Part shown: in pieces, positions 7,074 through 62,727 of the stretch
Layout of the letters: each line of letters opens with the position of its first letter
How positions within the stretch are numbered: the first letter of the stretch is position 1
Assembly: GCF_018598225.1 (NCBI RefSeq)
Contig: NZ_JAHESF010000018.1
Span: 1-64,000, forward strand
Source of the DNA: Chryseosolibacter histidinae
GTDB lineage: Bacteria > Bacteroidota > Bacteroidia > Cytophagales > Cyclobacteriaceae
Direction: 5' to 3'
Length of the DNA: 64,000 nt
Notes under the pieces: generated by a model
The model's input: the letters and a program-made list of their open reading frames with translations, nothing else
Databases searched by the model: none
What the model was told of the DNA's origin: nothing
Translations under genes and position numbers: made by a program

Positions 7074-8717
7074 ATGCGAACCAGGACTAAAAGGATATGG
7101 GCCATTGTAATGATACTGGGCATCGGCGTGGCCGTGCTGATCGCGGCCCGCTCTTACATTTTTGATCGTCTGAAAGAAACGTTACACGAAAAGGTCAGGA
7201 GCCTCAACAAAACAGATCTCAACATCCGGTACGATTCAATTTACATCGACTGGCGCAGGAACCTCATTATGGTTGACAAGCTCGTGGTGGAAAAAGATGC
7301 TTATGACACTACCTGCGCTTACCCGGAGTTTATCTCAGTGGAGAAAGTGAGGATCGAAGGATTCAGCCTTCTGTCTTATCTGTTCCGCAAGACGGTAAGC
7401 TTCGAAAACGTCTCATTGATGAAGCCACACATTGTCATGAGGCAGGCTTCCCGTCTGCTGCAGGATTCTTCCAGGGGAAAAGAGAACGGGTTCAGGCTCG
7501 CCATCGATGCAGTTCATCTCTACGGTGCCCATTTTGAATACACAGACAGTGCAGCCTGCAAACCCATCACAGAAGTTAAGTCAACCCTTCATGCGCTGTC
7601 CCTTGCCGTTGATGCACAGCCCGGCAGGACACCCAAATTTTCGCTGCAGGCTGTTCAGCTCGACAGCACAACGGTAGAACTGCCCGATGAATTTTATACC
7701 CTGCGCGTGAAAGCCCTTGCCGCAGACCTCAAAAAGGGAACGCTCAGGCTCGATACACTCAAAGTGAGCCCACACCACCCCAAACTCGCCTTTGGCAGGA
7801 AGAAGGGTTTTGAAACAGATCGCCTGGAAGGTGTAGTGCCCTTTCTCAATTTATCGGGCCTCAAGCTGCGATACGTTGATACGTTCGCCATCGAGGCAAA
7901 GAGCGCCAGCGTTCAGACATTCATGAAGATCTTCCGCGACAAGCGGCTGCCGGATAAAAAGAAGGTTACACTGCTGCCGCTCCCGCAACTGCGAAAACTG
8001 CCATTCGGCATCAGCATCGATTCACTTCGGCTGGTGAAGAGCTACATCTCCTATGAGGAGTTCCAGGTCGAAGCCGGCGTGCCGATCACCGTGTTTTTCG
8101 ACGATATCACGGCCACCGTCCTGCACCTCAACAACGACCGGAGCCTGGCACAGGGAGAAACGATCTTAAAGGCAAAGTGTGCTTTTATGAGCAAGGGCAG
8201 TGTCGAGCTGGTTGCGGTGATGCCATGGCAGGAAGAGAAGAATTGTACGGTTGAGGGGAACCTGAAGAATTTCAACCTTGAAAACATCAACCCCCTGCTC
8301 GAGCCGCTGGCCAACATGAAGATTGAATCAGGCATCATGAAAAGGCTTCACTTCAAGTACGCCTACAACAGCACCCGCGCCGATGGTGAAGTGGCGCTCA
8401 ACTATGAGAACCTGAAGGTGATCAGTTACAAAGACGACGAGAAATTAGAAAAAGACAAAAAACGCAAGCGCAACAGGAACAAAGACCCAGAAGACCTGAA
8501 AAAAGATAACCTCAAAAGTTTCATCATCAATGCTTTTGTGATCCGCAAGAACATGGATGAGAGCGTGCCCGAAGAAAAACGAACAGGAACAATACTGTTT
8601 TATCGCGACACCTCGAAATCACTCTTCAATTACTGGTGGAAGTCAGTCTTCTCCGGTGTCAAGGCTGCGTATAACCTCGACAAGCTGGAAGCGCTGGCGA
8701 AGAAAAAGAAGAAGTAG
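7074..8717 (+). CDS. AsmA-like membrane-anchored protein
   Basis: The 547-residue protein has one N-terminal transmembrane helix (about residues 9-25, IWAIVMILGIGVAVLIAA) and a long extracytoplasmic part rich in beta-strand patterns: LNIRYDSIYIDWRRNLIMVDKLVV, VSFENVSLMKPHIVM and FNLENINPLLEPLANMKIESGIMKRL. The last segment resembles the C-terminal region of AsmA/DUF748 proteins, which are thought to bridge the periplasm and affect outer-membrane lipid balance. The match is by pattern only. The C-terminus is Lys-rich (KLEALAKKKKK). The TAG stop lies inside the first unit of the repeat island that follows. Confidence 0.7.
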   Translation: MRTRTKRIWAIVMILGIGVAVLIAARSYIFDRLKETLHEKVRSLNKTDLNIRYDSIYIDWRRNLIMVDKLVVEKDAYDTTCAYPEFISVEKVRIEGFSLLSYLFRKTVSFENVSLMKPHIVMRQASRLLQDSSRGKENGFRLAIDAVHLYGAHFEYTDSAACKPITEVKSTLHALSLAVDAQPGRTPKFSLQAVQLDSTTVELPDEFYTLRVKALAADLKKGTLRLDTLKVSPHHPKLAFGRKKGFETDRLEGVVPFLNLSGLKLRYVDTFAIEAKSASVQTFMKIFRDKRLPDKKKVTLLPLPQLRKLPFGISIDSLRLVKSYISYEEFQVEAGVPITVFFDDITATVLHLNNDRSLAQGETILKAKCAFMSKGSVELVAVMPWQEEKNCTVEGNLKNFNLENINPLLEPLANMKIESGIMKRLHFKYAYNSTRADGEVALNYENLKVISYKDDEKLEKDKKRKRNRNKDPEDLKKDNLKSFIINAFVIRKNMDESVPEEKRTGTILFYRDTSKSLFNYWWKSVFSGVKAAYNLDKLEALAKKKKK

Positions 8718-8900
8718 GGAGTAGGCAAATAGTAGCAGTAGGCAAATCCGATCGCAAGCGATCGGGCAGTAGGCAAAGGACGAGTTACGGCAATTCTGGA
8801 GAGCTTCGTATGTTTAGCGCGAGCACAGTCTCGTAAGTCAACGCCTCGCACGTTGCCTGCTGCATGATAGCGCAGCTATCATATTTTGCCTACTGCCTAC
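8713..8900. repeat. Heptamer island with inverted GTAGGCA arms
   Basis: The left arm has GTAGGGA (8714-8720) and GTAGGCA (8721-8727), then looser copies to about 8747. The right arm has the reverse complement, TGCCTAC, twice (8887-8893 and 8894-8900). The core carries two perfect 8-bp hairpins, CCGATCGC-aa-GCGATCGG (8748-8765) and ATGATAGC-gca-GCTATCAT (8863-8881). The island fills the whole gap between two convergent genes and touches the stop codon on the left. Confidence 0.8.
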
Positions 8901-8904
8901 TGAT

Positions 8905-9246
8905 TTATAGGTAGTTCTTCAGCGTACTCAAGCTCAACGGCTTTTCAAGGATCTTGACAGAAGTACGGCCGGTGAGCTCCGGCGGCAGGTATTTGTATGC
9001 GCTGATGAGGTTGATCTTACATTCGGGATATGCCTGCAGCAGGTAATCCATCTTTTCCCAGCCCAGACCGTCAGGAAGGTTATTGTCGATAAATACGATA
9101 TCCGGAGAAACTTCTTTCATCAGCGTTAAGCCCGTACCGAGGGTGTTGGCTAAAAACACATCGTAATTCAGTTCAACAAGGTAAGTTTTCATGAGATGAC
9201 ACAGGTCTTCTTCGTCATCGATGATCACTATCTTTTTTTTATTCAT
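8905..9246 (-). CDS. Single-domain response regulator
   Basis: A 113-residue receiver domain: acidic residues IIDDEED (about 8-14), phospho-acceptor D54 in IVFIDNNLPDGLGW, a Ser/Thr switch region (LISAY) and Lys-Pro (LEKPLS) before the last helix. No output domain is attached, and no kinase gene is adjacent, so its partner is unknown. The gene ends 5 bp from a repeat island and starts opposite the YtxH gene. Confidence 0.88.
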   Translation of the reverse strand: MNKKKIVIIDDEEDLCHLMKTYLVELNYDVFLANTLGTGLTLMKEVSPDIVFIDNNLPDGLGWEKMDYLLQAYPECKINLISAYKYLPPELTGRTSVKILEKPLSLSTLKNYL

Positions 9247-9427
9247 AGCTGCTCCCTTGCATTTATCGTCAAAATCTATGCAAATGTTTCCGCTTTACAA
9301 GAAAAAAAATCTTGTACCTGAAGATGTAGATATTTTTTCACACGGCAAAATGTGTTAAAAAGGCTCTTTAGGTACAGTTTTTTTTGACGTTTTCCTCATC
9401 AAACAAAACCTTAAAGTATAAAATATT

Positions 9428-9697
9428 ATGAACTCAACAGGCAAAGTACTCTTGGCAATTATCGGCGCAGCAGCCGCAGGTGCAATCATAGGGATGCTCG
9501 TTGCTCCTGAAAAAGGAAGCGACCTGCGCAAAAGAATCTCTGACACTACCGGTGACTGGGCTTCTCAACTGAGCAACCTTCTGGCACAGGGAAAAGAACA
9601 GCTTGAGAATTTAAAACAGTCGGCAATGAGTGAAGGAGAAAACGTTGCTGGTGAAGCAGAAGGTCGTTTTAATAAAGTAAGAGAAAAAGTTTCTTAA
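9428..9697 (+). CDS. YtxH domain protein
   Basis: This 89-residue protein begins with a glycine/alanine-rich hydrophobic helix (residues 7-27, VLLAIIGAAAAGAIIGMLVAP), then EKGSDLRKRI and an amphipathic helix containing repeated Gln, Lys and Glu. That is the standard plan of YtxH (gas-vesicle GvpT-like) proteins of Gram-positive and Bacteroidota species, usually induced by general stress and membrane-associated. The upstream 180 bp separate it from a divergent response regulator. A strong hairpin ends the transcript just after the stop. Confidence 0.88.
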   Translation: MNSTGKVLLAIIGAAAAGAIIGMLVAPEKGSDLRKRISDTTGDWASQLSNLLAQGKEQLENLKQSAMSEGENVAGEAEGRFNKVREKVS

Positions 9698-9705
9698 AAA
9701 ACGGT

Positions 9706-9764
9706 GGTTGTCTCAAAAGTCATCCGTTATGCACGGGAGATCATGACTTTTGAGACAGCCTTTT
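9706..9764 (+). terminator. Long-stem intrinsic terminator after the YtxH gene
   Basis: Arms 9706-9723 and 9743-9760 pair over 18 positions with a single wobble (GGTTGTCTCAAAAGTCAT against ATGACTTTTGAGACAGCC), loop of 19 nt, then TTTT. It begins 8 bp after the stop codon. The long stem is unusual for a simple terminator. Confidence 0.8.
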
Positions 9765-10110
9765 CGTTTCTTAAAACCGCACAAAGATCCCAGAGAAACC
9801 ATTCTCTTTTGCCCCGCACATTTTGCCTGATCATGGCCCTCAGAAACACAAAGCGTTGTTTCCACTTCATCCGGAGCATTATCGTCAGAAAGCATACGAA
9901 TTAACACACGCTTCAGCGGATCAGTTTTTCCGAATGGCTTTTAGCATGAACGCAGCCGCCCACATGCCATTGGTTTGTTCAACCTGTCAAAACCGCCAGC
10001 AGCGTACAAGATCCCGCAGGAAGGTGTAGAAGCACATCTACATACCAGATCAATCTTTTTCGGGGAAAGTGAACTCCTTCTCCGGGGGCACCATTTTTTC
10101 TTCCTAAGTA
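9765..10110. other. Intergenic region without a supported gene
   Basis: Several open frames of 60-70 codons overlap here on both strands, none with a recognisable domain, signal or ribosome-binding site. The sequence has no heptamer array. I assign no function. Confidence 0.5.
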
Positions 10111-10467
10111 ATGGAACAAAACATGATTGCCATGGAAAAGAATAAAAATCAGCGGCAAGCAGGCCCTTCGGAACGACGCACCAGCAGACCCGGGCGGCAG
10201 GAACACACCAACAAGGGCAGGCCTGATCGCAGAAGTGAACCTTCGGCACGTCAGGAAACTGAGCAGGATACAAACGCCGCAACAGGTCATGCGAAACCTA
10301 TCACAAACCAGGATGCGCAGCGGAGGGCAACCAACGCCGGCAACTCAAACGATGTTATGGGCGAGCAGGAAACGGAAGGCGACCGATGGCGAAACGATAG
10401 ATCCAGACCCTATGTGAACAGTAACGATTTTATGAACATTCAACGCAAAACACCAACGATGGAATAA
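10111..10467 (+). CDS. Small hydrophilic disordered protein
   Basis: I do not recognise the family. The 118 residues are almost free of hydrophobic stretches and very rich in Arg, Gln, Asn, Glu and Thr (for example NKNQRQAGPSERRTSRPGRQ), which predicts intrinsic disorder. The start could also be the ATG at 10132 (MEKNKNQ). The next small gene follows after 56 bp in the same direction. Such low-complexity proteins occur near stress genes in Bacteroidota, but the reading could be spurious. Confidence 0.45.
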   Translation: MEQNMIAMEKNKNQRQAGPSERRTSRPGRQEHTNKGRPDRRSEPSARQETEQDTNAATGHAKPITNQDAQRRATNAGNSNDVMGEQETEGDRWRNDRSRPYVNSNDFMNIQRKTPTME

Positions 10468-10523
10468 CAAGTATGTAGACACCGACGAGGCCAAGCAGGC
10501 CCGCCGTTAAACATGACAACATT

Positions 10524-10736
10524 ATGAAAAAGCAATCGATCTTCGTGATTGGCATTGTCGTAGTTGTGATCAGTTGCTTAGGTGAAGGTGCCCTGTCTAT
10601 CCTTGAACATGAACAGTGGTCAAACTACGTTCAGACCTGGCAGACACCATGGGCGTCCGTAAACAAGAAAAAAGTTAAAAAATCAGAGCAGGAAATACCT
10701 TTGTGTGCTGAGAAGCTCGCAAGGGTGAGAATTTAG
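10524..10736 (+). CDS. Small possible lipoprotein
   Basis: A 70-residue frame starts MKKQSIFVIGIVVVVISC, giving a basic n-region, hydrophobic core and a lipobox-like VISC with Cys18. The remaining 52 residues have no recognisable domain. The size, signal and good ATG context (AACATTATGAAAAAG) favour a real gene. I cannot name a function, and the tail may be eroded by the repeat island that follows. Confidence 0.4.
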   Translation: MKKQSIFVIGIVVVVISCLGEGALSILEHEQWSNYVQTWQTPWASVNKKKVKKSEQEIPLCAEKLARVRI

Positions 10737-10760
10737 GAAATAGAGTGAAGTTATTTTAAC

Positions 10761-10899
10761 CGCAGAGAACGCGGAGAAGGCGCCGAGGGCCGCAGAGATT
10801 TTTTGGTAACCCTGAAAGATGCTCTATTAAGAGCACGATGAGATTTGCCTGCATTTTCTTTGCGCACTTTGCGTTTTCTTTGCGGTCTTTGCGTTTTGC
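10761..10899. repeat. Nonamer-type island with inverted CGCAGAG / CTTTGCG arms
   Basis: Left arm 10761-10798 has repeated CGCAGAG/CGCGGAG units about 9-11 nt apart. Right arm has CTTTGCG at 10858, 10867, 10878 and 10887 (steps 9, 11, 9). The arms are roughly reverse complements. The core contains GCTC-tattaa-GAGC. The right arm ends 5 bp before the stop codon of the REC-PAS kinase. Confidence 0.7.
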
Positions 10900-10903
10900 A
10901 TTT

Positions 10904-12343: not shown

Positions 12344-12346
12344 GGG

Positions 12347-13948: not shown

Positions 13949-13958
13949 AACTGTGATA

Positions 13959-15434: not shown

Positions 15435-15471
15435 GAGCGTTGTTATGTAAAACTATTTAAGACATCAGCTA

Positions 15472-16881: not shown

Positions 16882-17798
16882 AATATAAGGGCCGGTTAAG
16901 TTCCTCCCAAACATTACAAGCTTGGCTCCATTTTCTGCCAAAACCCGGACCGTTTTAATAAACATCTGTAAATCAGTTAGTTAAATTCACTTAGTACGAC
17001 AGCGGCTGTAATCGTTTAAACAGCCGTGTAGAATGATTTCCCATTTTGTTGCTATCTAAGTTAGCTCATTTGAGGAATAAATTCCACACCAAAAATGGGT
17101 TTTTCCGGCGAATTTAGAGGTTTTTAGATGCGATGAAGTGAAGCTGAAAGGTGAAAAATAGCGATCTGAAAACAGCCATTTTCAATAAAATCTTACAGGG
17201 AAATAGAAAATACCGGAGAGGCTACTGTAAATGGTAATCGGTTTTAATAGTAATCGGTATTCGGTAATCGGGTATTCAGGTAATGGAGTCCGGTATTCAG
17301 TAGTCGGTTGGGGTCAGTTACCGATCACCGATTACTGTTTACTGATAACCGATTACCAGTTTACTGATTACTAATCACCGATTACTGTTCACTAATTACG
17401 GTTTGTTCCGTGACAACGGAGGAGTCAGGCGACGCCTCTACAGGAGATAAAACTGAAAGCAGCGCGAAGGCTACGGCGGAGGTTTCCTTCTTCCACTGCA
17501 TGAAGTATAACCAGCATATCTCAGTTCCGTTCATCGTGCCCGGGAGTATACAACCATCCACTATGCTGCGCAGCAGTGTTCTCACAAATACAGTTATTGT
17601 CATCAGTTCCATTCTGTTGCTGAGAAAAAAAACGAAATGCCCGCTGCTTATAGCAGGATTTCCGTTTCTATACGGCACCACTGTGAGCATTTTTTTACAC
17701 ACCCATCCGCATCTGCACTGTGTAATTGACCGGAAGCCGCGTTTTGCTCTGGCATGTTAATGGTGAAGACATCAGTGGATAACCAAAATTGTAATACT
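16882..17798. other. Long non-coding region upstream of rpoN
   Basis: This 917-bp stretch is between divergent genes. The part next to rpoN (16882-17220) is AT-rich and should contain its promoter, though I cannot place boxes with confidence. The middle (17234-17400) is a large heptamer island. The remainder to 17798 has overlapping open frames without domain features and is probably the leader of the DUF1328 gene. Confidence 0.55.
17234..17400. repeat. Heptamer island with the longest phased array (GTAATCG / ACCGATT)
   Basis: Left arm: GTAATCG at 17234, 17250 and 17264, GTATTCG at 17257, and variants to about 17307. Right arm: eleven consecutive units from 17320 to 17397 on an A-C-(C/T)-G/A-A/T-T-T theme, ten of them exactly 7 nt and one (17355) of 8 nt; ACCGATT recurs at 17327, 17348 and 17377. 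The right arm is the approximate reverse complement of the left, with almost no core between. Confidence 0.88.
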
Positions 17799-17966: not shown

Positions 17967-17990
17967 CGACCGAGGTATGCAGAACAAACA

Positions 17991-18273: not shown

Positions 18274-18307
18274 CTCCCTGAACTGGTAACAGTCTTCAAC
18301 ACGTCTC

Positions 18308-18365
18308 CTCCTGACTCCTTACTTCTTGCTCCTTACTCCTAATTCTTCTCGCTCCTGACTACTAT
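18308..18365. repeat. Heptamer array (CTCCTKA) overlapping the YihY 3' end
   Basis: Consecutive 7-nt units: CTCCTGA (18308), CTCCTTA (18315), CTTCTTG (18322), CTCCTTA (18329), CTCCTAA (18336), then a 9-nt variant, CTCCTGA (18352) and CTACTAT (18359). The YihY-type gene ends at 18319, so its last 14 or so codons are read from this array. No clear inverted partner arm is seen. Confidence 0.85.
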
Positions 18366-21143: not shown

Positions 21144-21228
21144 CCCGGGCTCCTGGCTCTTCTCCTTACTCCTTACTCCTTACTCCTACTTCTTCCCCGC
21201 CTCCTGCCCCCTGGCTCCTTGTTCCTGA
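21144..21228. repeat. Heptamer array (CTCCTTA) overlapping the iron-permease-like gene end
   Basis: CTCCTTA occurs at 21162, 21169 and 21176 without gaps, then CTCCTAC (21183). After an 11-nt break come CTCCTGC (21201), CCCCTGG (21208), CTCCTTG (21215) and TTCCTGA (21222), again without gaps. Looser copies start near 21144. The minus-strand gene ends at 21186, so its last 14 codons come from the array. Confidence 0.87.
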
Positions 21229-21710: not shown

Positions 21711-21803
21711 GACTTTATTTAATTGAATGGCACAAGGTACAAAAAACAAAAAGTCAGGACAGCACCTGACTTTTTTTGGATCGGGAAATTAGGCATTTTG
21801 CAA

Positions 21804-21824
21804 GGTACGAGGTACGATTTACGA
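21804..21824. repeat. Short heptamer array (GGTACGA)
   Basis: GGTACGA at 21804 and 21811, then TTTACGA at 21818, all in phase. A second pair of similar units, GTACTTC and GTACCTT, is at 41570-41583. The array is short, so this call rests on similarity to the other islands. Confidence 0.5.
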
Positions 21825-21865
21825 AGACGATTTAGCGGCCTCGCACGATACGCAATGCCTGTTGT

Positions 21866-22703: not shown

Positions 22704-22802
22704 AGTTTTACCAACACGGTTGAAAAACGCCATGCCGTTAAGCAACTATGCTTTTAGTGTAAGGGGTTGTACAGGTTGTACTAATTTATCCGCAAACGGG
22801 AA

Positions 22803-22884
22803 GGAGTAAGTAGTAAGAATTAAGGAGTAAGAATGGGCAAGAATTAGGAGACAGGAGCCAGGAGTCAGAAGAGGTTACTCCTGG
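22803..22884. repeat. Heptamer island (GGAGTAA / GAGYCAG)
   Basis: GGAGTAA (22803), GTAGTAA (22810), GAATTAA (22817), GGAGTAA (22824), one 10-nt unit, then GAATTAG (22841), GAGACAG (22848), GAGCCAG (22855) and GAGTCAG (22862). A short inverted partner, ACTCCTGGCTTCA, follows near 22877-22889. The island lies between two minus-strand genes. Confidence 0.85.
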
Positions 22885-23250: not shown

Positions 23251-23300
23251 GCGTGTTGATTTGACTTCGTCAAATTTAGGACAGATTTCGGTGTATTACT

Positions 23301-23455
23301 AGAAGCCAGAAGTCAGGAGCCAGGAGTCAGAAGGTGCGGTGCGGTGTAAAAATCAGCCTGGGCACCGGTCTGGGAGACGTCCTGGGGCTGGTTACACCGA
23401 AACCTGGTTGTCACGCTGTATTCTCCTGGCTCCTGACTCCTGGCTCCTGGCTTCT
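23301..23455. repeat. Heptamer island with inverted AGGAGYC arms
   Basis: Left arm: AGAAGCC (23301), AGAAGTC (23308), AGGAGCC (23315), AGGAGTC (23322), AGAAGGT (23329). Right arm: TTCTCCT (23421), GGCTCCT (23428), GACTCCT (23435), GGCTCCT (23442), GGCTTCT (23449). The arms are imperfect 35-nt reverse complements around an 85-nt core that itself has CGGTGTAA...TTACACCG. The first 33 nt of the left arm recur exactly at 52185. The right arm lies immediately before kdsB. Confidence 0.9.
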
Positions 23456-23475
23456 TTTTACTAATTTTAAGCCCC

Positions 23476-30596: not shown

Positions 30597-30654
30597 TGGG
30601 TTATCAGGTTTGGATAAAACTACAAAGACTTCCTGGGAGCGGAAAGGAAATTCT

Positions 30655-30793
30655 GTTACCGGTTGCCAGTTGCCGGTTGCCGGTTCAGTACGTCCCTGGC
30701 GAAGTGGATTCACGGTGCTCATCCAGAGTTGAAAAGAACCAAACGGTGAAAGTTCACACTGCTCAAACAGGCTAACTGGCAACTGGCAACGAA
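30655..30793. repeat. Heptamer island with inverted GTTGCCR arms
   Basis: Left arm: GTTACCG (30655), GTTGCCA (30662), GTTGCCG (30669), GTTGCCG (30676). Right arm: TAACTGG (30773), CAACTGG (30780), CAACGAA (30787). The 90-nt core lacks the hairpins seen in other GTTGCC islands. It sits between a terminator and the metalloprotease gene, so it probably lies in the leader of that gene. Confidence 0.85.
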
Positions 30794-41568: not shown

Positions 41569-41820
41569 CGTACTTCGTACCTTTAAACATACATCAACAA
41601 AGGGTTTGCTTTTTATGAATTGATCATCCACTTTGGGGGACACCGTTCAAAGCTGAAAAAACAAAGGCCAAAAAAAATGACGTATTCATGGGTATTTAAC
41701 AACCACAAGAATCACCTCTCTGGAAATGGACTGGCAAAATAAACCTGCGTGCGCTTTTTCTGCGGGCGATATTGCAGCGAGAACGGTGATTAAAAAAATA
41801 ACCCTTTCCGGGTTAAGAAT

Positions 41821-41938
41821 TTAGATATGAGATGTAAGACTTGAGATTTGAGACCCGAGACCGTGCACGGACACAGAGTCACCGGGAGGTATTATCTCAT
41901 GTCTCATATCTAACATCTTATCCCGATAGCTATCGGGA
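41821..41938. repeat. Heptamer island (TGAGATN) with terminal palindrome
   Basis: Left arm: six gapless units from 41821 to 41862 (TTAGATA, TGAGATG, TAAGACT, then TGAGATT, TGAGACC, CGAGACC). Right arm: ATCTCAT (41894), GTCTCAT (41901), ATCTAAC (41908), ATCTTAT (41915), reverse complement in type. The core is only 31 nt. The perfect palindrome TCCCGATAGCTATCGGGA (41921-41938) abuts the right arm. Confidence 0.88.
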
Positions 41939-42010: not shown

Positions 42011-42114
42011 TGAAGAAATTTCTACGTGTATGATGAAGGATGTTGTTACAAAGTTTGTCTACGATGAGAGATTTTCTATCACCCACTAAGGTTGATTTTT
42101 GAAAACCGTGGGGG

Positions 42115-42216
42115 GTTTAAAATTTAAAGTTTAAAGTTATTCGAGTGAACGACTGCCGATTTCAGAACCTCCAAACTTGAAACTTCAAACTTCAAACTTG
42201 AAACCTTAACCCTTAG
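42115..42216. repeat. Heptamer island (GTTTAAA / ACTTCAA)
   Basis: Left arm: GTTTAAA (42115), ATTTAAA (42122), GTTTAAA (42129), GTTATTC (42136). Right arm: ACTTGAA (42175), ACTTCAA (42182), ACTTCAA (42189), ACTTGAA (42196), ACCTTAA (42203), CCCTTAG (42210), all without gaps. The stop codon of the LuxR-type regulator is 6 bp away. A related array is at 60600-60627. Confidence 0.87.
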
Positions 42217-42221
42217 ACTTG

Positions 42222-48588: not shown

Positions 48589-49857
48589 ATGAAACAACTT
48601 CTACTGATCGGTCTGTTAGCGATGGGAATATGTCCGGCGATCGCGCAACCAAACGCGCTGCCGGAGGCTCTTGCCAAAGCACGTGAAGCTTACAAGGCGG
48701 GTGATCACCAGCGGTTTTATGAGCTGATGCTGGAAGCGCACAAGGTTCACCCCTATCACCAGGGCGTGCTGTACCAGGCGGGTCTTGCCGCGGCGCTGAA
48801 CAACAAACCGGAAGAGGCCATCACCTGGCTGACCAGGGCGATCCAGGTCAACGCAGCGTACGACCTCACACACCAGGACCTGGCATCGCTGAACGGAAGA
48901 GAAGATCTCGAAAAGCTCAAGATATTGCAGCAGGAGCTTCAGCAGCCGATCGTACACTCGGATACAGCCTTTGTGGTGAAAGACCGCACCTTACATGTGG
49001 AGACCATCGCACCCGGAGAATCGAAAGGTGTTTTTTACCTGGGCAGCATTCACAGGAGCAAGATCGTACGGGTTGACGAAAAGGGAAACAGCCGCGACTT
49101 TACCACCGACGGACAGGACGGACTTACCTCGGTGTTTGGCATCAAGGTGGATGCGGCCAAAAAAGTTCTCTGGGCGTGTGCTGCTCCCGTGCCGCAGATG
49201 GAGGGTTTTGATTCAACCCACACGCCTGCCGTATTCAAATATGATCTTCGCACAGGAAAGCTCCTGACCCGGTACTCACCTCGCGTGCCCAAGCAACCAA
49301 TCTTCGGCGACCTGGTGCTTTCTTCCAAAGGTATTGTTTTTATTCCTGACAGCAGGAACAACATCATCTTCACGGTGAATGAGCGCAGCGGACAACTGGA
49401 GCCCTATTTTACGTCTCCCGAGTTCTGGAACATTCAGGGCATCACCTTTTCGGATGATGGCAAATACCTGTTCATCGCCGACTATATCAAGGGCATCTTC
49501 AGGCTCGATATGCAAAACAAAACGCTGACGTTCCTGCCCGCAGATTTTCCGCTCTCGTTAAAATCCATCGACGGCCTTACGTACTACAACAATTCGCTTG
49601 TGGCCATTCAGAACGGCGTGACACCCATGCGCGTAACACGGTATTACCTGAATGATACGCACGACAGGCTTACAAGCTATTCCATCATAGACCGCGCGCA
49701 TCCCGCGTTCAATGAGCCTACTACAGGTTGCAGGATCAACGATACCTTCTATTATGTAGCCAACAGCCTGTGGTCAGGATATGACAAGGCGAACAAGCTA
49801 AAACCAACGAATGAGCTACAGGATGTGGTGATATTGAAGGTTGGGTTGAAAAAGTAG
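48589..49857 (+). CDS. Secreted TPR plus beta-propeller (SMP-30-like) protein
   Basis: Start at 48589 (MKQLLLIGLLAMGICPAIAQ, signal peptide), 422 residues; the open frame continues 47 codons upstream but lacks protein character. Residues 25-120 are TPR-like (ALAKAREAYKAGDHQRFYELMLEAHKVHP). The rest has repeated blades of an SMP-30/NHL-like propeller (DGLTSVFGIKVDAAKKVLWACAA, WNIQGITFSDDGKYLFIADYIKGIFRLDM, DGLTYYNNSLVAIQNG). A lactonase-like or binding role in the periplasm is possible; catalytic residues are not obvious. Confidence 0.8.
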   Translation: MKQLLLIGLLAMGICPAIAQPNALPEALAKAREAYKAGDHQRFYELMLEAHKVHPYHQGVLYQAGLAAALNNKPEEAITWLTRAIQVNAAYDLTHQDLASLNGREDLEKLKILQQELQQPIVHSDTAFVVKDRTLHVETIAPGESKGVFYLGSIHRSKIVRVDEKGNSRDFTTDGQDGLTSVFGIKVDAAKKVLWACAAPVPQMEGFDSTHTPAVFKYDLRTGKLLTRYSPRVPKQPIFGDLVLSSKGIVFIPDSRNNIIFTVNERSGQLEPYFTSPEFWNIQGITFSDDGKYLFIADYIKGIFRLDMQNKTLTFLPADFPLSLKSIDGLTYYNNSLVAIQNGVTPMRVTRYYLNDTHDRLTSYSIIDRAHPAFNEPTTGCRINDTFYYVANSLWSGYDKANKLKPTNELQDVVILKVGLKK

Positions 49858-49860
49858 ATT

Positions 49861-50061
49861 GTTAATTGTTGCCGGTTGCCAGTTGCCGGTTTGGTCTGGG
49901 TCGCGGAAGAAACTTCCGCATCGAGGTGTTGCTACGAATGAGTTTTTTTTTGCGCACGGAAGAAACTCCGCGCCAGTTGTCAGACCACTGCGCCGCCGCC
50001 CGCGCACAAGCAGTGGTCAGACGACTCTCAACCCGCTACCCGGTAACCGGCAACCGGCAAC
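49861..50061. repeat. Heptamer island with inverted GTTGCCR arms and conserved hairpin core
   Basis: Left arm: GTTAATT (49861), GTTGCCG (49868), GTTGCCA (49875), GTTGCCG (49882). Right arm: CGCTACC (50034), CGGTAAC (50041), CGGCAAC (50048), CGGCAAC (50055). The core 49902-49974 has two GCGGAAG/CTTCCGC-type hairpins around a 35-nt linker and is the reverse complement of cores at 56390 and 60475. A further hairpin, CAGACCACTG...CAGTGGTCAG, is at 49981-50020. The patatin gene ends inside the right arm. Confidence 0.9.
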
Positions 50062-50927
50062 CGTTCATAGGCGTTCCGGAAAGCGCTGCGTCCTTCCTCG
50101 ATGATCTCGTTGGCGCGATAGAATTCAAAGACACCGCAGGCATCGCGTGAGATATTCACCACGAGGTCGGGTTTATGGACGTCGATCATCAGGTCGGTGA
50201 GGCGATCCAGGGTGAGGTCGTACGATCTGTTCATGAGATCGAAGAAGCCGAATTTTTCTACCTGCTCTTCCTGTTTTGGATCGGTCTTGAGAAACTGCAT
50301 GCGAAAGGCGTCGAGCATCTTCAGGTATGCCGCTCTTTCCTGGTTCACCACGGGCGCTGCGAGGCGAGGCGGCGGAATGTTGGCATTGACGTTCACTGCC
50401 ACCACCAGGTCACCCTGTTCTTTGCAGACCAGGTTCAGCGGCAACGGGTTCAGCACGCCTCCGTCAACGAGCTGTGACCTGCCTTCGGTCACAGGTGTGA
50501 ATACACTGGGTATGGCGATAGACGCTCTTAGTGCCTTGAACAAACTACCAGTCCTGTAATGCACTTCCTGTTTCTGGATGAGGTCTGCCGCTACCGCGAT
50601 GAAGGGAATCCTGAAGTTTTCAATCTGATGGTCGCCAATAAGTTGTTCAATGGCTTTGAAGACCCTTTCTCCCTTTACAAATCCTTGTGATGAAAATGTG
50701 AAGTCAAGCAACCGGAAAACTTCCAGCTTGGTAAGACTGATGAGCCAGTGTTTATATTCGCTGAGGTACCCGGCGCAATAGATCCCGCCCACTACGGCGC
50801 CCATGGAGCAACCAACAACCTGCTTGATATTATAACCTTCTTTTATAAGCTCTTCAATAACGCCGATATGCGCCATTCCACGCGCACCACCGCTTCCCAG
50901 CACCAGACAAATATTCCCTTGTGGCAT
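50028..50927 (-). CDS. Patatin-like phospholipase (NTE type)
   Basis: From the ATG at 50927 (MPQGNICLVLGSGGARGMAHIGVIEEL) the protein has 299 residues. The oxyanion motif GSGGARG (11-17), the nucleophile S41 in GCSMGAV, and the catalytic Asp in LVDGGVLNPLP make the Ser-Asp dyad of patatin-type lipases; it probably hydrolyses phospholipids. No signal peptide is seen. The final residues (RLPVAGYRVAG) are encoded by a heptamer island and replace whatever the ancestral tail was. The alkaline-phosphatase-like gene lies 46 bp upstream on the same strand. Confidence 0.92.
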   Translation of the reverse strand: MPQGNICLVLGSGGARGMAHIGVIEELIKEGYNIKQVVGCSMGAVVGGIYCAGYLSEYKHWLISLTKLEVFRLLDFTFSSQGFVKGERVFKAIEQLIGDHQIENFRIPFIAVAADLIQKQEVHYRTGSLFKALRASIAIPSVFTPVTEGRSQLVDGGVLNPLPLNLVCKEQGDLVVAVNVNANIPPPRLAAPVVNQERAAYLKMLDAFRMQFLKTDPKQEEQVEKFGFFDLMNRSYDLTLDRLTDLMIDVHKPDLVVNISRDACGVFEFYRANEIIEEGRSAFRNAYERLPVAGYRVAG

Positions 50928-52104: not shown

Positions 52105-52422
52105 GAACTACTGTTTTCCTGATTCATCGAACCAAAAACCGTACCTGCTTATTCTTCTTCGATAGATGCGGTGTATTGGAAAATAGAAGCCAGAAGTCAG
52201 GAGCCAGGAGTCAGAAGTGCAGGGCGTTGAACCAGCTATTTCCGGCTATGAGTTTGGTGACGACAAAGCATCCCCTAACCACCGCTTACCTCTGGGCTTG
52301 GATTCGTCACCCATTCTCTATTACCTGGACGTTCCCTGACTCCTGACTCTGGCTCCTGACTTCTTTTCCTCCGAAACAAACCCTACCTTTATTCTGAAAC
52401 TAAAACTCCGAAATAACTCCAA
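52105..52422. other. Intergenic region filled by a repeat island
   Basis: This 318-bp gap between divergent genes is mostly the heptamer island at 52185-52361. The promoter of the PHP phosphatase gene must lie in the last 60 bp or inside the island. No coding sequence. Confidence 0.6.
52185..52361. repeat. Heptamer island with inverted AGGAGYC arms
   Basis: Left arm: AGAAGCC (52185), AGAAGTC (52192), AGGAGCC (52199), AGGAGTC (52206), AGAAGTG (52213), identical over 33 nt to the island at 23301. Right arm: CCTGACT (52335), CCTGACT (52342), a 6-nt unit, CCTGACT (52355). The 115-nt core is unrelated to that of the 23301 island but also folds (GGTGACGA...TCGTCACC). Confidence 0.9.
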
Positions 52423-54556: not shown

Positions 54557-54575
54557 TCGAATGGAAATACAATCA

Positions 54576-54799: not shown

Positions 54800-54808
54800 A
54801 CCAGCACT

Positions 54809-55432: not shown

Positions 55433-55492
55433 ACCTTTACCTCTTTACCCGCTTCGTATGATGAAAATAAATGTGCCAACAGCTGGTGAAAA

Positions 55493-55628
55493 AGTTGACA
55501 TCCCGATAGCCATCGGGAGACAAAAGAACAGTTGACAAAGGTTTGACCAGACTTTCCAGGATCGTAGCTCGAATAATGATGTCGACTCCAACAGTTGTCA
55601 ATTGCCATTTGTCAACTGTCAATTGATC
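55493..55628. repeat. Heptamer island (GTTGTCA) with internal 18-bp palindrome
   Basis: Right arm, gapless: GTTGTCA (55594), ATTGCCA (55601), TTTGTCA (55608), ACTGTCA (55615), ATTGATC (55622). The left arm is looser: AGTTGAC (55493), TTGACAA (55532), TTTGAC (55542). TCCCGATAGCCATCGGGA (55501-55518) lies within the left arm. The HD gene stop codon begins at 55628, the last base of the array. Confidence 0.82.
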
Positions 55629-56215: not shown

Positions 56216-56307
56216 TCCCAGCTATTTGGAAAAAACTATGCGCGTGATTTACGGTGACAACAGCCAGGGAAGCGGCAAAAAAGTGGGGCGTTAACTGCAC
56301 AAAATTG

Positions 56308-56505
56308 GTTGCCAGTTGCCGGGTGGCCGGATGGCCAGTTCAGTTTTGTGTGAACATCACATCTGTGCTTCGCTTCCGGAGCATCAACTGGCGCGGAAGT
56401 TTTCCGTGCGCTTAAAACTTATTCGTAGCAATACCCTCGATGCGGAAGTTTCTTCCGCCAACCCGCCTAAACCGGCAACAGGCAACTGGCAACTGGCAAC
56501 CCGAC
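56308..56505. repeat. Heptamer island with GTTGCCR arms and conserved hairpin core
   Basis: Left arm: GTTGCCA (56308), GTTGCCG (56315), then degenerate copies. Right arm: ACCGGCA (56471), ACAGGCA (56478), ACTGGCA (56485), ACTGGCA (56492), ACCCGAC (56499). Core 56390-56459: GCGCGGAAG-TTTTCCGTGCGC hairpin, linker with CTTATTCGTAGCAATACC, then GCGGAAGTTTCTTCCGC. Confidence 0.9.
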
Positions 56506-56608
56506 TACGCCAGGCTTCGTCAGGCAAAGCCACCATTCCGGGCAACCTATTTATAAAATGTTTACACTTTAACACCGCCTTTTAATGAAATCTTTATACC
56601 GTATACCA

Positions 56609-56616
56609 TACTTTTG
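56609..56616 (+). promoter_or_regulatory. Candidate -7 promoter element of the kdpD/kdpE-like/kup operon
   Basis: TACTTTTG fits TAnnTTTG, the Bacteroidota -7 element, 20 bp upstream of the TTG start. No good TTTG box is found 19 nt further upstream, so support is partial. Confidence 0.4.
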
Positions 56617-56636
56617 AGCTGGCTTGAGGCCCGGTT

Positions 56637-58410: not shown

Positions 58411-58435
58411 AAAACAACTCCTTCGAGTTTAGAAA

Positions 58436-60382
58436 ATGGATTCTTCAAGCAACAAACATCACCCATTATCCACCGCCGGCGTGCTCATTGCACTGGGCAT
58501 TATTTATGGAGACATCGGCACCTCTCCCATCTATACACTAAAGTTCATTGTCGGCAACCGTGTGATCACCGAAGACCTCGTCTATGGCGGACTGTCATGC
58601 ATTTTCTGGACGCTCACGCTCATCACCACGTTAAAATATATTTACCTGGCACTAAATGCCGACAACAAAGGTGAAGGAGGGATCTTTGCCCTCTATGCGC
58701 TCGTGAGACGGTACAAGGCCAAGTGGGTGATCTATCCGGCCATTATCGGATGCTGCACCCTGATCGCGGATGGTTTCATCACACCGGCCATCAGTGTCTC
58801 TTCAGCGGTGGAAGGATTGCGCCTACTGTATCCTCAGATCCCCACCACCAGCATTGTTATCGCCATCCTGCTTTGCCTTTTCATTTTTCAGCAGTTCGGG
58901 TCGGCTGTAGTAGGAAGAACTTTCGGGCCGATCATGTCCGTGTGGTTTGTGATGCTGGGCGCTTTCGGCACGTATTACCTGGTGCAAAATCCGGTGATCC
59001 TCAAAGCCATCAATCCTGCTTATGCTGTTGACCTGATCATTAACTATCCCCAGGGCTTCTGGCTGCTGGGCGCTGTCTTCCTCTGCACCACGGGGGCTGA
59101 AGCGCTTTACTCCGACCTCGGCCATTGTGGCAAGGGCAACATACGGGTGGGCTGGGGCATGGTCAAGATCTGTTTACTGCTGAACTATTTCGGCCAGGGC
59201 GCGTGGCTGCTCACACAACAAGGCAATACCCTCGGTGAGCTGATCCCGTTTTATGCCATCATGCCGCAGCAGTTCCTCATCATCGGCATCATCATCGCCA
59301 CCATGGCCACCATCATCGCCAGCCAGGCCCTCATCTCCGGCACGTTCTCGCTCGTGAACGAAGCCATCAAGCTCAAGCTCTGGCCTTCCTCCAGGGTTCG
59401 GTATCCGAGCGAATCACAGGGCCAGATGTATATCCCCGCCATCAACTGGATCCTGATGATCGGAAGCATCGTTGTGGTGATCGTCTTCCGCGAGTCGTCT
59501 GCCATGGAAGGCGCCTACGGACTTGCCATCACCGTGAACATGCTCATGACCACTTCCCTGCTGGTGTACTATTTCACCACGGCAAAAAAATCGAAGCTCC
59601 GGTCAGCCATGCTGGCGGTTGTATTCTTCTCGCTGGAAGGTATGTTCCTCGCTTCGAACCTCGACAAGTTCAAACACGGCGGATGGTTCACTTTTGTGAT
59701 CGCGTTCCTCTTCTTTGTAATGATGTTCATCCTGCTGAAGGCGCGCAACCTGCGGCAACGCCACACCGAGTTTGTCGACCTCAGGCACTACGAGGCCATG
59801 CTGAAAGAGCTCCAGGATGACCAGAGCATTCCCAAGGAAGCCACCAACCTCGTTTACCTGTCGGTGGCTGACAGTCGCCGGTATATCGACTCCAACATCA
59901 TCTACTCGATCTTCAAAAAAAGACCGAAACGCGCCGACGTATACTGGTTCGTACACGTGGATACCGTGGACAGTCCGTTCACCAGCAAGTACGTTGTAGA
60001 CACCATCATTCCCAAGCGATGTTTCTTCGTGCGCATAAAACTGGGATTCAAGATGCCGCACCGTGTGAACACCCTCTTCAACAGGATCATCCACGAAATG
60101 GCCGATGCAGGAGAGATCGATCTAACGAGTCCGTACCCCGCCCTGCACAAGTACAGCATGATGGCCGACTTCAAGTTCGTGCTGCTCCATTCGTGGGCAT
60201 CCGCCGACAGCGAGATCTCCAGCTTCGAACGGCTGGTCATCACCGGATACCGCGCCATCAAAACCATCAGCCTTTCCACCGAAGAAATGTATGGCCTCGA
60301 AGCCGCCAACATCGAAGTTGAAAAAGTGCCGATCCAGGTAGGGCCTACGGCGAAGGTGAAAGTGAAACGGGAAAGGGATTAG
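58436..60382 (+). CDS. kup: Potassium uptake protein Kup
   Basis: Kup/HAK/KUP transporters import K+ with protons in the inner membrane. The 648 residues include the N-terminal signature GIIYGDIGTSPIYTLK (20-35), about twelve helices, GADGF-like IADGFITPAISVLS-type segment (CTLIADGFITPAISVSSAVEG), GAEALYSDLGHCG and a cytoplasmic C-terminal domain (from about 440). Length and motifs are usual. It ends an operon with the KdpD/KdpE-like pair. The TAG stop shares its G with the first unit of a repeat island. Confidence 0.97.
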   Translation: MDSSSNKHHPLSTAGVLIALGIIYGDIGTSPIYTLKFIVGNRVITEDLVYGGLSCIFWTLTLITTLKYIYLALNADNKGEGGIFALYALVRRYKAKWVIYPAIIGCCTLIADGFITPAISVSSAVEGLRLLYPQIPTTSIVIAILLCLFIFQQFGSAVVGRTFGPIMSVWFVMLGAFGTYYLVQNPVILKAINPAYAVDLIINYPQGFWLLGAVFLCTTGAEALYSDLGHCGKGNIRVGWGMVKICLLLNYFGQGAWLLTQQGNTLGELIPFYAIMPQQFLIIGIIIATMATIIASQALISGTFSLVNEAIKLKLWPSSRVRYPSESQGQMYIPAINWILMIGSIVVVIVFRESSAMEGAYGLAITVNMLMTTSLLVYYFTTAKKSKLRSAMLAVVFFSLEGMFLASNLDKFKHGGWFTFVIAFLFFVMMFILLKARNLRQRHTEFVDLRHYEAMLKELQDDQSIPKEATNLVYLSVADSRRYIDSNIIYSIFKKRPKRADVYWFVHVDTVDSPFTSKYVVDTIIPKRCFFVRIKLGFKMPHRVNTLFNRIIHEMADAGEIDLTSPYPALHKYSMMADFKFVLLHSWASADSEISSFERLVITGYRAIKTISLSTEEMYGLEAANIEVEKVPIQVGPTAKVKVKRERD

Positions 60383-60587
60383 TTACCAGTTGCCGGTTAC
60401 CGGTTGCCAGTTTGTACATCAGAACTTCATTTTTGCAGATCGTTGATCCATTGACTCGGCCCAATCGCTCCTTCGCGCGGAAGTTTCTTCCGTGCGCTCA
60501 CAAAGAACTCATTCGTAGCCATACCACGATGCGGAAGTTTCTTCGGCCACCCGCCCAAAACCGGCAACCGGTAACTGGCAACCGGCA
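60382..60587. repeat. Heptamer island with GTTGCCR arms and conserved hairpin core
   Basis: Left arm: GTTACCA (60382), GTTGCCG (60389), GTTACCG (60396), GTTGCCA (60403), gapless and starting on the last base of the kup stop codon. Right arm: ACCGGCA (60560), ACCGGTA (60567), ACTGGCA (60574), ACCGGCA (60581). Core 60475-60548 matches those at 56390 and, inverted, 49902: two GCGGAAGTTTCTTCCGY hairpins around a linker with ACTCATTCGTAGCCATACC. Confidence 0.92.
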
Positions 60588-60599
60588 ACCTTCCACCGA

Positions 60600-60627
60600 A
60601 CTTTAAACCTCAAACCTTAAACTTTCC
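60600..60627. repeat. Heptamer array (ACYTYAA)
   Basis: ACTTTAA (60600), ACCTCAA (60607), ACCTTAA (60614), ACTTTCC (60621), gapless. It follows the GTTGCCR island after 12 bp and resembles the right arm at 42175-42209. No inverted partner seen. Confidence 0.75.
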
Positions 60628-60981
60628 TGTCCGGATTCTGAAACCCGCGTTGTCTTTACCACATGAGGCAACTTCTATACATGGCAACGCAGGCGATCCT
60701 GTGGAGCGCTTTTTCACAACCCGGTCCTTCGCCTGTTTTACTTCGATTTCACAGGCAACATCGACGGCTTGCTGGCCTCCACCAGTGCCAGCATTACACA
60801 CAGGCTGATCCCGCTTTCGATCCAGTGCCAGGGCGTATCACCCCTCTGGACCGATTTCCCGGGCAACCACTTCAAATGGAATCCGGGAGTGGTGTATGCT
60901 TTTTGAATTTGTTTACGGAACTTGTAACGAGGCGCCACGTACCTCATACCTTACTTTAAGATCATTCAATACCGATTCTAT
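60628..60981. other. Intergenic region with a possible gene remnant
   Basis: No complete gene. A plus-strand frame is open from 60667 to the stop at 60904-60906 without a plausible start; its end reads GNHFKWNPGVVYAF, which has the look of a protein C-terminus. It may be a decayed gene end or chance. The DGPF gene promoter should lie after 60910 (AACTTGTAACG zone). Confidence 0.35.
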
Positions 60982-61329
60982 ATGGAAAAATTCATGCTGA
61001 TCATCCGCGAAGACCTGAAAAAGCTGAGCCGGCTCACGGACGAAGAACGGTTCTCTAACATCCCCGAGCAGTTGAAATGGATCGAGTCCATCGCTGCCGC
61101 GGGAAATTACATTACTGGCGAACCCTTGGCCATAGAAGGCAGGTATGTGAGCAGGAACGATGTGTTGTCTGACGGGCCCTTCATTGAATCGAAGGAAGGG
61201 GTCAGTGGTTATGACATCATCCTGGCAGAGAACATCAACCAGGCTGTTTCCATCGCGCAGACGTGTCCGCTGGTGATGAAGGGCGTTGCCGTCATAGAAG
61301 TGAGGCCGATCCAAAACATCGATGCATGA
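60982..61329 (+). CDS. DGPF (YciI-like) protein of an ECF42 pair
   Basis: The 115-residue alpha/beta protein has the defining motif LSDGPFIESKEGVSGYDII, plus FMLIIREDLKKLSRL at the start. DGPF proteins have a YciI fold and are the constant neighbours of ECF42 sigma factors; their own function is unknown. The stop TGA overlaps the ATG of the sigma gene (ATGA), so the two are translationally coupled. Confidence 0.93.
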   Translation: MEKFMLIIREDLKKLSRLTDEERFSNIPEQLKWIESIAAAGNYITGEPLAIEGRYVSRNDVLSDGPFIESKEGVSGYDIILAENINQAVSIAQTCPLVMKGVAVIEVRPIQNIDA

Positions 61330-62588
61330 TGGACCCGGTGCAGCAGGAAGCCGACAGGTTATACAAAGCACATTTTGGAAAGATGGTTGCCTCGCTGCTG
61401 TATTCCTTCCGCGACATCGACCCGGAAACCGCTGAAGACCTTGTACACGACTCCTTCTCCGCAGCCCTCACAACCTGGAGGCTGCAGGGCATTCCGCTGA
61501 ATCCCGCCGGCTGGGTCTACAAGGTCTGCAGAAACAAAACCCTGAACCAGCTCAAAAAAGAAAAACGTACGGAGGCACTTGACGAGCACACCCTTGCAGG
61601 ATCGGCTGAAATGAGATTCTCTGAGTCAGTGCTCGATGACCAGTCGCTGAAACTATTGTTTGCCTGCGCCCATCCCGACCTGTCACCCAAAGTGCAAGTA
61701 GTAATCACGTTGAAATATGTGGCCAACCTCAAGGTGGAAGCCATTGCGGGAAGCCTGGCCATGACCATCGATGGCGTGGACAAACTTTTACTTCGGGCCC
61801 GGCAAAAGATCAAAGATGAAAAGATCCTCCTGGAAGAACCGGCAACCCCAGCCTTGAGCGCACGACTCTCCAGCGTACACAAAGTGATCTACCTCATCTT
61901 CAACGAAGGTTATAAATCATCATGGGGCACGGAGATCCTGAGGGAAGAGCTCTGCGAAGAAGCATTGCTCATGAACAAGGCCTTACTCGACAGCGCACTG
62001 GGAAACAAGGAAACGCTGGCACTCCACGCGTTGATGCTGTTCAGCAGCGCCAGGTTCAGGTCCAGGTTCGGGGCTTCCGGTGAGCTGATCGATTTAGAAA
62101 ATCAGGATCGCACCCTGTGGAACAAAGAGCTGATAGCCCTCGGCTCCCACTACCTTCACCAATCAAGAAGCGACACTGTATCCAAGTATCATCTCGAAGC
62201 CTCCATCGCGTGCCTGCATTGCATGGCCGAAAGCTTCCACACCACCCACTGGAAAACCATCGCAGCCCTCTACGCACAGTTGCTGCACGGAACGCCCAAT
62301 CCCTTCATCGCGCTCAACCACGCCATTGCGTTGTATCATGCGGGAGAAAAGTCGCGTGCCTTCGAGATCCTTCACGAACTCCAGAGACATCCCTTCCTCG
62401 GGCAGTACTACCTGCTCAACACAGCCCTGGGAAAATTCCACCACCTCGAAGGCAACGATGCCGCAGCCAAAGAATACCTGCTGAAAGCGCAGCGGCAGAC
62501 AAACTTTGAAAAGGAGAAAGAGTTCATTCAGAAGATGATCGATGAACTCGGAGATGTTGCCGGTTGCCAGTTGCCTGTTACCAGTTGA
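61326..62588 (+). CDS. ECF42-type sigma factor with C-terminal TPR-like domain
   Basis: From the ATG at 61326 (MMDPVQQEADRLYKAHFGKMV) the protein has 420 residues. Sigma-70 region 2 covers about 10-75 (DIDPETAEDLVHDSFSAALTTW), region 4 about 110-165 (KVQVVITLKYVANLKVEAIAGSLAMTIDGVDKLLLRARQKI), followed by a SnoaL-free, helical TPR-like extension (NHAIALYHAGEKSRAFEILHELQR) usual in ECF42. No anti-sigma factor gene is present, as expected in this group. The last eleven residues (DVAGCQLPVTS) are encoded by a heptamer island. Confidence 0.94.
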   Translation: MMDPVQQEADRLYKAHFGKMVASLLYSFRDIDPETAEDLVHDSFSAALTTWRLQGIPLNPAGWVYKVCRNKTLNQLKKEKRTEALDEHTLAGSAEMRFSESVLDDQSLKLLFACAHPDLSPKVQVVITLKYVANLKVEAIAGSLAMTIDGVDKLLLRARQKIKDEKILLEEPATPALSARLSSVHKVIYLIFNEGYKSSWGTEILREELCEEALLMNKALLDSALGNKETLALHALMLFSSARFRSRFGASGELIDLENQDRTLWNKELIALGSHYLHQSRSDTVSKYHLEASIACLHCMAESFHTTHWKTIAALYAQLLHGTPNPFIALNHAIALYHAGEKSRAFEILHELQRHPFLGQYYLLNTALGKFHHLEGNDAAAKEYLLKAQRQTNFEKEKEFIQKMIDELGDVAGCQLPVTS

Positions 62589-62727
62589 GACTGTGCAAAA
62601 TATCACGCGTGATTACCGTTTGATAGGCTGATAAAAATCCACTTCGAAGCACACTCTCCAATGCGGAAGTTTACTTCCGCCACCCGCACTAAACTGGCAA
62701 CCGGTAACCAGCAACCAACTACCCAAC
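62556..62727. repeat. Heptamer island with GTTGCCR arms spanning two gene ends
   Basis: Left arm: GTTGCCG (62556), GTTGCCA (62563), GTTGCCT (62570), GTTACCA (62577), inside the end of the sigma factor gene. Right arm: ACTGGCA (62693), ACCGGTA (62700), ACCAGCA (62707), ACCAACT (62714), ACCCAAC (62721), containing the stop codon of the convergent kinase gene (62719-62721). The core keeps one hairpin, TGCGGAAGTTTACTTCCGC (62662-62680). Confidence 0.9.

Follow-up and report, generated by a model that had tools for sequence, protein, structure and literature searches.

According to parts of PMC4990558, the intervening sequence (IVS) of Coxiella is a 428-nt selfish element in the 23S rRNA, with a 28-bp terminal stem and an S23 open reading frame (ORF) that is preceded by two or three tandem GACAGAT heptamers, their number depending on the strain. 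The S23 protein of Xanthomonas campestris is described in the same source as a homopentamer of four-helix bundles. For Xanthomonas, parts of Rehm 2015 (PMC4692102) report convergent inverted pairs of GGGAATC heptamers, 70 in Xcc and 75 in Xac. The cause of the bacterial intergenic heptamer excess is left open in PMC4679880 and PMC4692102. Here, we analysed positions 1 to 64000 of contig NZ_JAHESF010000018.1 of Chryseosolibacter histidinae (hereafter the window, 64,000 nucleotides); the assembled genome has 122 contigs and a size of 8.04 Mb. The window contains intergenic islands built from inverted arrays of 7-nt units (heptads). We consider it likely that these islands are non-autonomous elements of the IVP/IVS type, with the heptads as putative recognition sites of cognate IVP proteins (PF05635, 23S_rRNA_IVP).

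Heptad arms and the IVP gene between them

Arrays were detected with Tandem Repeats Finder (TRF) and a lag-7 detector, and those with at least 19 of 24 lag matches were called strong. The genome was sampled as 1,559,754 bases in 76 stretches (1.56 Mb), and an earlier set of 1.16 Mb served for clustering and shuffling. A genome scan, set beforehand as the test of the proposed period-7 excess, found 217 strong arrays at period 7 against 0 to 2 at every other period from 4 to 13; lags 14 and 21 also gave matches, as multiples of 7. Block-shuffled DNA (1.16 Mb) gave no period-7 array. At a looser threshold the 1.56 Mb contained 346 arrays, from which 1,784 arms are extrapolated for the entire genome. 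An earlier note on this DNA had described most arms as inverted pairs, and such pairing was far above chance among same-family neighbours at most 450 bp apart, with 82 convergent, 1 divergent and 9 same-direction cases in the 1.56 Mb. For the 133 unpaired arms of the 1.16-Mb set, a weak partner was seen on the expected side in 45 and on the other side in 3.

A wide-gap pair of arms of family F6 (the ten unit families are described below), at L014:1655-2197, encloses a PF05635 gene. The genome has seven PF05635 matches, all on contigs other than that of the window, and the window islands themselves lack an IVP ORF; they are called no more than gene-less relatives. The flanks of the own-genome IVP genes carry units of F6 (L014), F1 (GTCCAC at L330 and GTCCAT at L331), F9 (L332) and F7 (L329), and the gene at L188 is flanked by a GAGCTGT-type unit. 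L329 fell slightly under the period threshold and was judged by eye and by an inverted repeat of 18/20, and one flank of the IVP remnant L173 has an F3 array. Across a non-random set of 63 IVP loci, inverted short-period arms were found on both sides of 42 (period 7 at 33, period 8 at 7, and periods 9 and 10 at 1 each), whereas the same criterion picked out a single one of 400 random loci and none of 29 kdsB or 26 Y1_Tnp loci. The set comprised 29 of 30 profile-search loci (L321 was too short), one L188 gene, 18 of 20 chosen stretches (two being repeats) and 15 of 46 plasmid records. Within it L349 to L352 are close relatives of one another; the remnant L173 was excluded, and the duplicate pairs L311/L332 and L326/L339 were counted once, both here and in the coupling set used below.

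The 15 plasmid IVP genes, from cyanobacteria, Azospirillum and Gemmatirosa, included 10 with period-7 arms and 2 with period-8 arms, and L356, L359 and L362 failed the arm criteria. At several of these genes the left arm stops immediately 5' of the start codon. Units identical or similar to those of this genome are found at IVP genes elsewhere, namely F5 at L345 and L333, F8 at L340, an F2-like unit at L337 and an F4-like unit at L325. No IVP match was found in a phage collection. Three plasmid IVP genes, all flanked by short-period repeats, are located in CRISPR-Cas operons: the one in L353 (Picosynechococcus) has cas10 and a cmr3-family gene as its neighbours, and those in L358 (Anabaena) and L359 (Pseudanabaena) sit between cas6 and cas4. 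Another, L361 on the Azospirillum plasmid AZO_p2, has ACRGAKG-type arms, and its surroundings look like what we take to be a 23S rRNA gene.

Where IVP proteins are alike, their units mostly are too, even when Bacteroidota are compared with cyanobacteria. Among the 33 period-7 loci, mean unit similarity was 0.759 for pairs with at least 60% protein identity (15 pairs), 0.508 at 50 to 60% (11 pairs) and 0.457 to 0.471, depending on the bin, for the 502 pairs under 50%; a Mantel test of protein against unit similarity gave an r of 0.377 (p 0.0002). The F6 protein of this genome and four cyanobacterial plasmid proteins (~60-65% identical) have the unit AGTCAGR in common. Separately, the idea that the period-8 IVP proteins form a clade of their own was rejected (p=0.96). 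In the genome of their IVP gene, dispersed cognate arms had a mean density of 16.0 per Mb (n=10, range 0.0-42.6, with the gene's own arms counted for L324 and L188). The density of non-cognate arms was 2.08 (n=89), to which F6-like cyanobacterial arms matching this genome contributed ~80 of 185 summed units and the L319 unit (G001) in G002 contributed 32.

The partner IVP family offers a simpler reason for the fixed step, namely a protein that accompanies the repeats and probably reads them. Each island end would then consist of some four 7-nt recognition sites, the two ends being inverted, and in the gene-bearing members the same arms would enclose an IVP gene ('S23' / 'four helix bundle protein'), like the IVS of the 23S rRNA. 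Every family would have its own heptad, matched to its own IVP protein. An IVP ring, which has five subunits in one relative in print, may read consecutive heptads; the nearest solved IVP structure is XCC0516 of X. campestris (2gsc). The step would be fixed by the spacing of the binding sites, and the unit sequence would drift along with the protein. With inverted arms the element would read alike on both strands, and its bound ends, as DNA or RNA, might be held for copying and reinsertion in trans by some polymerase or nuclease.

Unit families and islands of the window

Of the 253 arrays in the 1.16-Mb set, clustering by unit assigned 252 to ten families that recur throughout the sampled genome, so the earlier idea of a separate unit for each island was not upheld. 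The families, by unit consensus and with their sizes in the 1.56 Mb, are F1 (RGTCSAY, 79), F9 (RGTTTMA, 61), F6 (RAGYMAG, 57), F4 (RGTACGA, 57), F2 (RGTTRCC, 45) and F3 (RGTAWTC, 27), with 20 arrays in F8, F10, F5 and F7 together. RGTnnnn is a general form covering most families, and 11 of the 346 arrays fitted their assigned family poorly. The 7-nt step was indeed kept while the unit changed, both across families and across genomes. Arms had mostly four units in F1 (39/58) and F4 (36/42), those of F1 beginning and stopping at fixed phases, and F9 arms varied from 3 to 11 units. In 53 anchored F1 arms most positions were near-invariant, with A or G at every seventh base and C or G in units 2 and 3. 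Units 2 and 3 together read CG in 34, GC in 25, CC in 11, GG in 2 and otherwise in 4 of 76 arms (Fisher p=1.6e-8), and exactly one GTCGAC-type unit among the two was far above chance. The A/G sites were mutually unlinked (lowest p 0.137), the comparison of an A/G with a C/G site gave 0.0125 in one case, and 67 of the 76 arms were distinct. Places with 0-1 mismatches to the family pattern, compared with those with 3-6, numbered 70:34 in F1, 43:23 in F4, 59:33 in F6, 26:43 in F2 and 40:77 in F9. Since decayed copies outnumbered near-intact ones in F2 and F9, the notion that decay is kept out of every family was dropped.

In the window, the lag-7 detector gave 22 arrays at 15/21 and 23 at 16/21. 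TRF placed 7-nt arrays at the sites named in the earlier note, and our own tally, made partly by eye, came like that note to about 17 intergenic period-7 islands, 11 of them with two inverted arms and 6 being single arrays or same-direction array pairs. The two-armed islands are given without strand. The F5 (RGTAGGC) island at 8713-8903 has inverted arms at 8713-8729 and 8885-8901, and F5-unit IVP genes exist in the sister genomes G001 (L345) and G002 (L333). The F3 island at 17227-17400 has two inverted arms near 17246 and 17318. A complete F6 island occupies 23299-23459, with the left arm at 23299-23333, a GTG box, the core and the right arm at 23423-23459; the syntenic G002 region is a short intergenic one without an array. 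A second F6 island lies at 52179-52361 (arms 52185-52218 and 52335-52361). The F8 (TGAGATN) island at 41814-41922 has arms at 41835-41862 and 41893-41920, and the F9 island at 42111-42218 has an A-type arm at 42116-42143 and a C-type arm at 42166-42215.

The F2 islands lie at 30651-30790 (left arm 30653-30685, right arm 30774-30790), 49857-50070, 56305-56508 (a weak left arm from ~56307, seen by eye, and a right arm at 56466-56503), 60377-60627 and 62552-62726 (arms 62556-62586 and 62692-62723). At 60377-60627, F2 arms at 60378-60412 and 60559-60597 are followed by one F9 arm at 60599-60625. A second repeat of paired GCGGAAGAAACTTCCGC-type palindromes is nested in F2 cores, at 49880-49980 within the island at 49857-50070 and also at 56380-56440 and 60475-60540. 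The remaining period-7 sites are a minus-strand single F6 array at 18304-18365, detected by TRF and the lag-7 detector, two pairs of same-direction F6-type arrays at 21148-21227 (minus strand; 21154-21196 and 21199-21226) and 22797-22874 (plus strand; 22799-22833 and 22841-22871), a weak plus-strand F4 array at 21797-21826 found by the lag-7 detector, and a minus-strand F7 (RGTTGAC) array at 55592-55626, whose counterpart is the same-genome IVP gene L329 with TTGACAA-type arms. Two islands with a 9-nt step had also been claimed; one inverted island of the CGCARAGAN type was found by TRF and by eye at 10743-10900, outside the period-7 set, and the second was not identified. Apart from the islands, 276-bp tandem repeats lie inside a long ORF at window positions 1-892, and stretches with 73-78% similarity to them are present on contig C62.

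Core lengths, put at 35-170 nt in the earlier note, ranged from 0 to 219 nt and depended on the family. They were mostly short in F3, F4, F9 and F10 (medians 11-22, with F9 up to 83), and long cores prevailed in F1, F2 and F6 (medians 76-92, with F1 down to 21). In F1, F2 and F6 a GTG-rich box lies directly inside the arm, and GTG starts facing inward versus outward numbered 50:2 in F1, 30:6 in F2, 25:0 in F6, 6:2 in F4 and 14:2 in F9. Sequence on the inner side of the arms was common to distant loci in 129 pairs involving 85 of 253 arms, compared with 3 pairs and 6 arms on the outer side. The arms look like the ends of copied elements, because the sharing between loci hardly extends beyond them. 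Some of the shared core DNA consists of other nested repeats, such as the GCGGAAGAAACTTCCGC repeat, which also occurs once without arms at L010:187-270.

Complementarity between the two arms of an island was compared with that between arms taken from different islands. It was not higher in F2 and F6, was slightly higher in F1 (P=0.035) and was lower in F4 and F9, and a selected hairpin pairing, one of the earlier suggestions, was set aside after this test. RNA folding was strong in five islands chosen by us (z -4.25 to -8.70). In F9 the arms were heterotypic in 14 of 17 islands, one being of the C type and the other of the A type. In 20 F1 islands with both arms anchored, 51 of the 71 seventh-base sites differed between the arms (0.498 after permutation, P<1/5000), an effect limited to the blunt register (best register 0.43 vs 0.39). 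This mismatch rule was absent in 17 F1-type islands of other genomes (0.47 vs 0.50), and it is an unexplained feature of this genome because it did not recur there.

Distribution, rival explanations and weight

The islands are intergenic, with 19 of 253 arms inside ORF calls. With intergenic regions delimited by uncurated ORFs of at least 100 aa picked by length, arms were present in 44 of 110 regions between convergent genes, in 15 of 100 between divergent genes and in 85 of 303 between tandem genes, where they lie towards the stop of the upstream gene. Islands were absent from the five syntenic intergenic regions read in sister genome G002. Period-7 arrays numbered 8 in 140 kb of G002 (mostly with other units), 13 in 166 kb of G003 and 0 in 40 kb of G001, and thirteen 20-kb samples of other relatives (L066-L078) had none. 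The F1 pattern occurred in 21 of 395 genomes of the phylum, including this one with 542 matches. The control pattern (F1 reversed) was common in families f34 and f36, for example with 72+38 matches in G160, and possibly represents a different heptad family. A long 9-base periodicity (ACAGGN...) at L112:18445-20405, in a metagenome-assembled genome of Bacteroidia, is probably a coding repeat. The mobility suspected in the earlier note fits the behaviour of the islands as dispersed, copied elements, and the sharing between loci together with the patchy distribution suggests that they may move.

Three other explanations were weighed. The arms might be host-useful RNA 3'-end structures or regulator sites that were captured by IVP elements, which we regard as unlikely. 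Their location mostly 3' of genes agrees with the RNA 3'-end role proposed before, and the strong folding of the five chosen islands would also fit, whereas the pairing of the arms gave no sign of selection, being at family expectation in F2 and F6 and below it in F4 and F9. The islandless G002 regions likewise speak against a host use, and selection against promoter damage would give the same position bias. A very unlikely source of the islands is polymerase slippage that favours a 7-nt step and yields simple sequence repeats, their inverted copies arising through template switches at hairpins. Heptamers are reported as the commonest such class in most surveyed genomes, with slippage proposed, in parts of PMC4679880 and PMC4692102; the variable F9 arms and a handful of long, perfect arrays found elsewhere, such as that of about nine units in L244, are also what slippage would produce. 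The earlier suggestion that slippage wrote the repeats nevertheless agrees poorly with the four-unit arms of F1 and F4, the fixed phases and the one-GTCGAC-type-unit rule of F1, the 82:1 polarity, the same ten families throughout the sampled genome and the association with IVP genes.

The least probable of the three is that the islands are REPIN-like elements moved by a Y1 transposase (RAYT), with a secondary IVP association. Such elements would account for two inverted arms, single arms, variable spacers and the lack of a target-site duplication, and the genome has four Y1_Tnp matches. Flanking inverted repeats at Y1 transposase genes are expected for repetitive extragenic palindromic (REP)-like systems. 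Strong inverted repeats did flank 9 of 28 Y1_Tnp loci (L199-L228); arms of period 7 on both sides were seen at none of these 28, nor at any of the 26 Y1_Tnp loci used as controls. In the few genomes compared, moreover, Y1_Tnp copies did not track array density (4 in this genome, 3 in G003 and 28 in G015). A miniature inverted-repeat transposable element (MITE) of a DDE transposase was rejected, no target-site duplication being found in 60 islands (2.62 vs 2.53 permuted).

Several observations weigh against an IVP-associated origin of the islands, among them this lack of a target-site duplication. By our criterion 21 of the 63 IVP loci had no such arms. The IVP matches of this genome include no gene for F2, F4, F5, F8 or F10, and for F3 they include the remnant only. 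Little dispersal was seen for the arms of L188 (0.6 per Mb) and of L337 and L341 (0.0). No empty site at base resolution was found, and there was no sign of current movement. It is also conceivable that the order was the reverse, with the IVP gene spreading inside pre-existing arrays. The period-8 loci stood outside the coupling test. The Picosynechococcus protein L353 is 69% identical to L351, one of the four cyanobacterial proteins with the AGTCAGR unit, and yet has a different unit and period 8, and because of L353 our confidence in the IVP explanation was lowered slightly; we still hold it to be likely.

A wider possibility, which we put forward tentatively and with less than even confidence, is that IVP proteins are rings reading nucleic acid in seven-base steps, with one heptad per subunit and a heptad for each paralogue. 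The selfish elements driven by these proteins would make up a large class that spans phyla, with the 23S rRNA IVSs as no more than its best-known members. For such a ring, the seventh-base mismatch of F1 would prevent pairing of the arms and leave them open to the protein. If true, ring reading would account as well for the heptamer repeats seen in Xanthomonas, Nostoc, Calothrix and Beggiatoaceae.

Comparison with known systems

A literature search, non-exhaustive and judged on titles and abstract openings, gave no paper joining IVP genes to dispersed heptad arrays. An element with an IVP gene in inverted heptads, occurring in several phyla, may explain long-puzzling bacterial seven-base repeats. 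It would join two loose ends, namely the intergenic heptamer excess and the role of the IVP/S23 protein and the intervening sequences. It would also mean that the arms of a mobile-element population in a single genome number well over a thousand, with many parallel specificities, and a readable code linking IVP proteins to their heptads is predicted. The families would be a natural experiment on the joint change of a protein that binds nucleic acid and the repeated sequence that it targets.

The TAACTGA repeats of Beggiatoaceae (MacGregor 2015), as described in parts of PMC4679880, are likewise intergenic heptamer arrays, found also in cyanobacteria and Bacteroidetes. Unlike the present arms, they form 169 direct sets and one indirect set in the Beggiatoaceae genome described, most of them directly upstream of start codons there. 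The words S23, four helix, intervening and IVS are absent from that text. The GGGAATC and GGGGA(C/T)T arrays of Xanthomonas and Nostoc resemble the islands as intergenic 7-nt arrays in convergent pairs. They differ, in the parts of PMC4692102 that describe them, in having one unit type per group, in being treated as G-quadruplexes and in the few inverted pairs of Nostoc; the words S23, intervening and four-helix are absent from the text of Rehm 2015 (PMC4692102).

REPIN/RAYT systems share with the islands the inverted arm pairs, the single arms, the variable spacer and a proposed trans-acting protein. Their protein belongs to another family, and the examined Y1_Tnp genes lacked period-7 arms. 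PF05635 is described as homologous to the retroelement protein Avd in part of PMC10053308. Consistent with this homology to Avd of diversity-generating retroelements, the NCBIfam Avd model matched IVP at 36.4 bits (E 5e-9), whereas IVP remained under the model cut-offs (36.4 vs 80 for Avd and 33.2 vs 40 for bAvd).

Another close system is the 23S rRNA IVS with an S23/IVP ORF (Coxiella, Leptospira and others), in which a PF05635-type ORF also lies between terminal inverted repeats. Unlike these, the window islands lie between protein genes, lack the ORF, occur in hundreds of copies and have several unit families. They are not inserted in 23S rRNA, being intergenic in a window with no Rfam family at gathering score. 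The tandem heptamers of the Coxiella IVS, placed at its 5' end in parts of PMC4990558, are a further likeness, and this element supports the IVP explanation as an independent published case.

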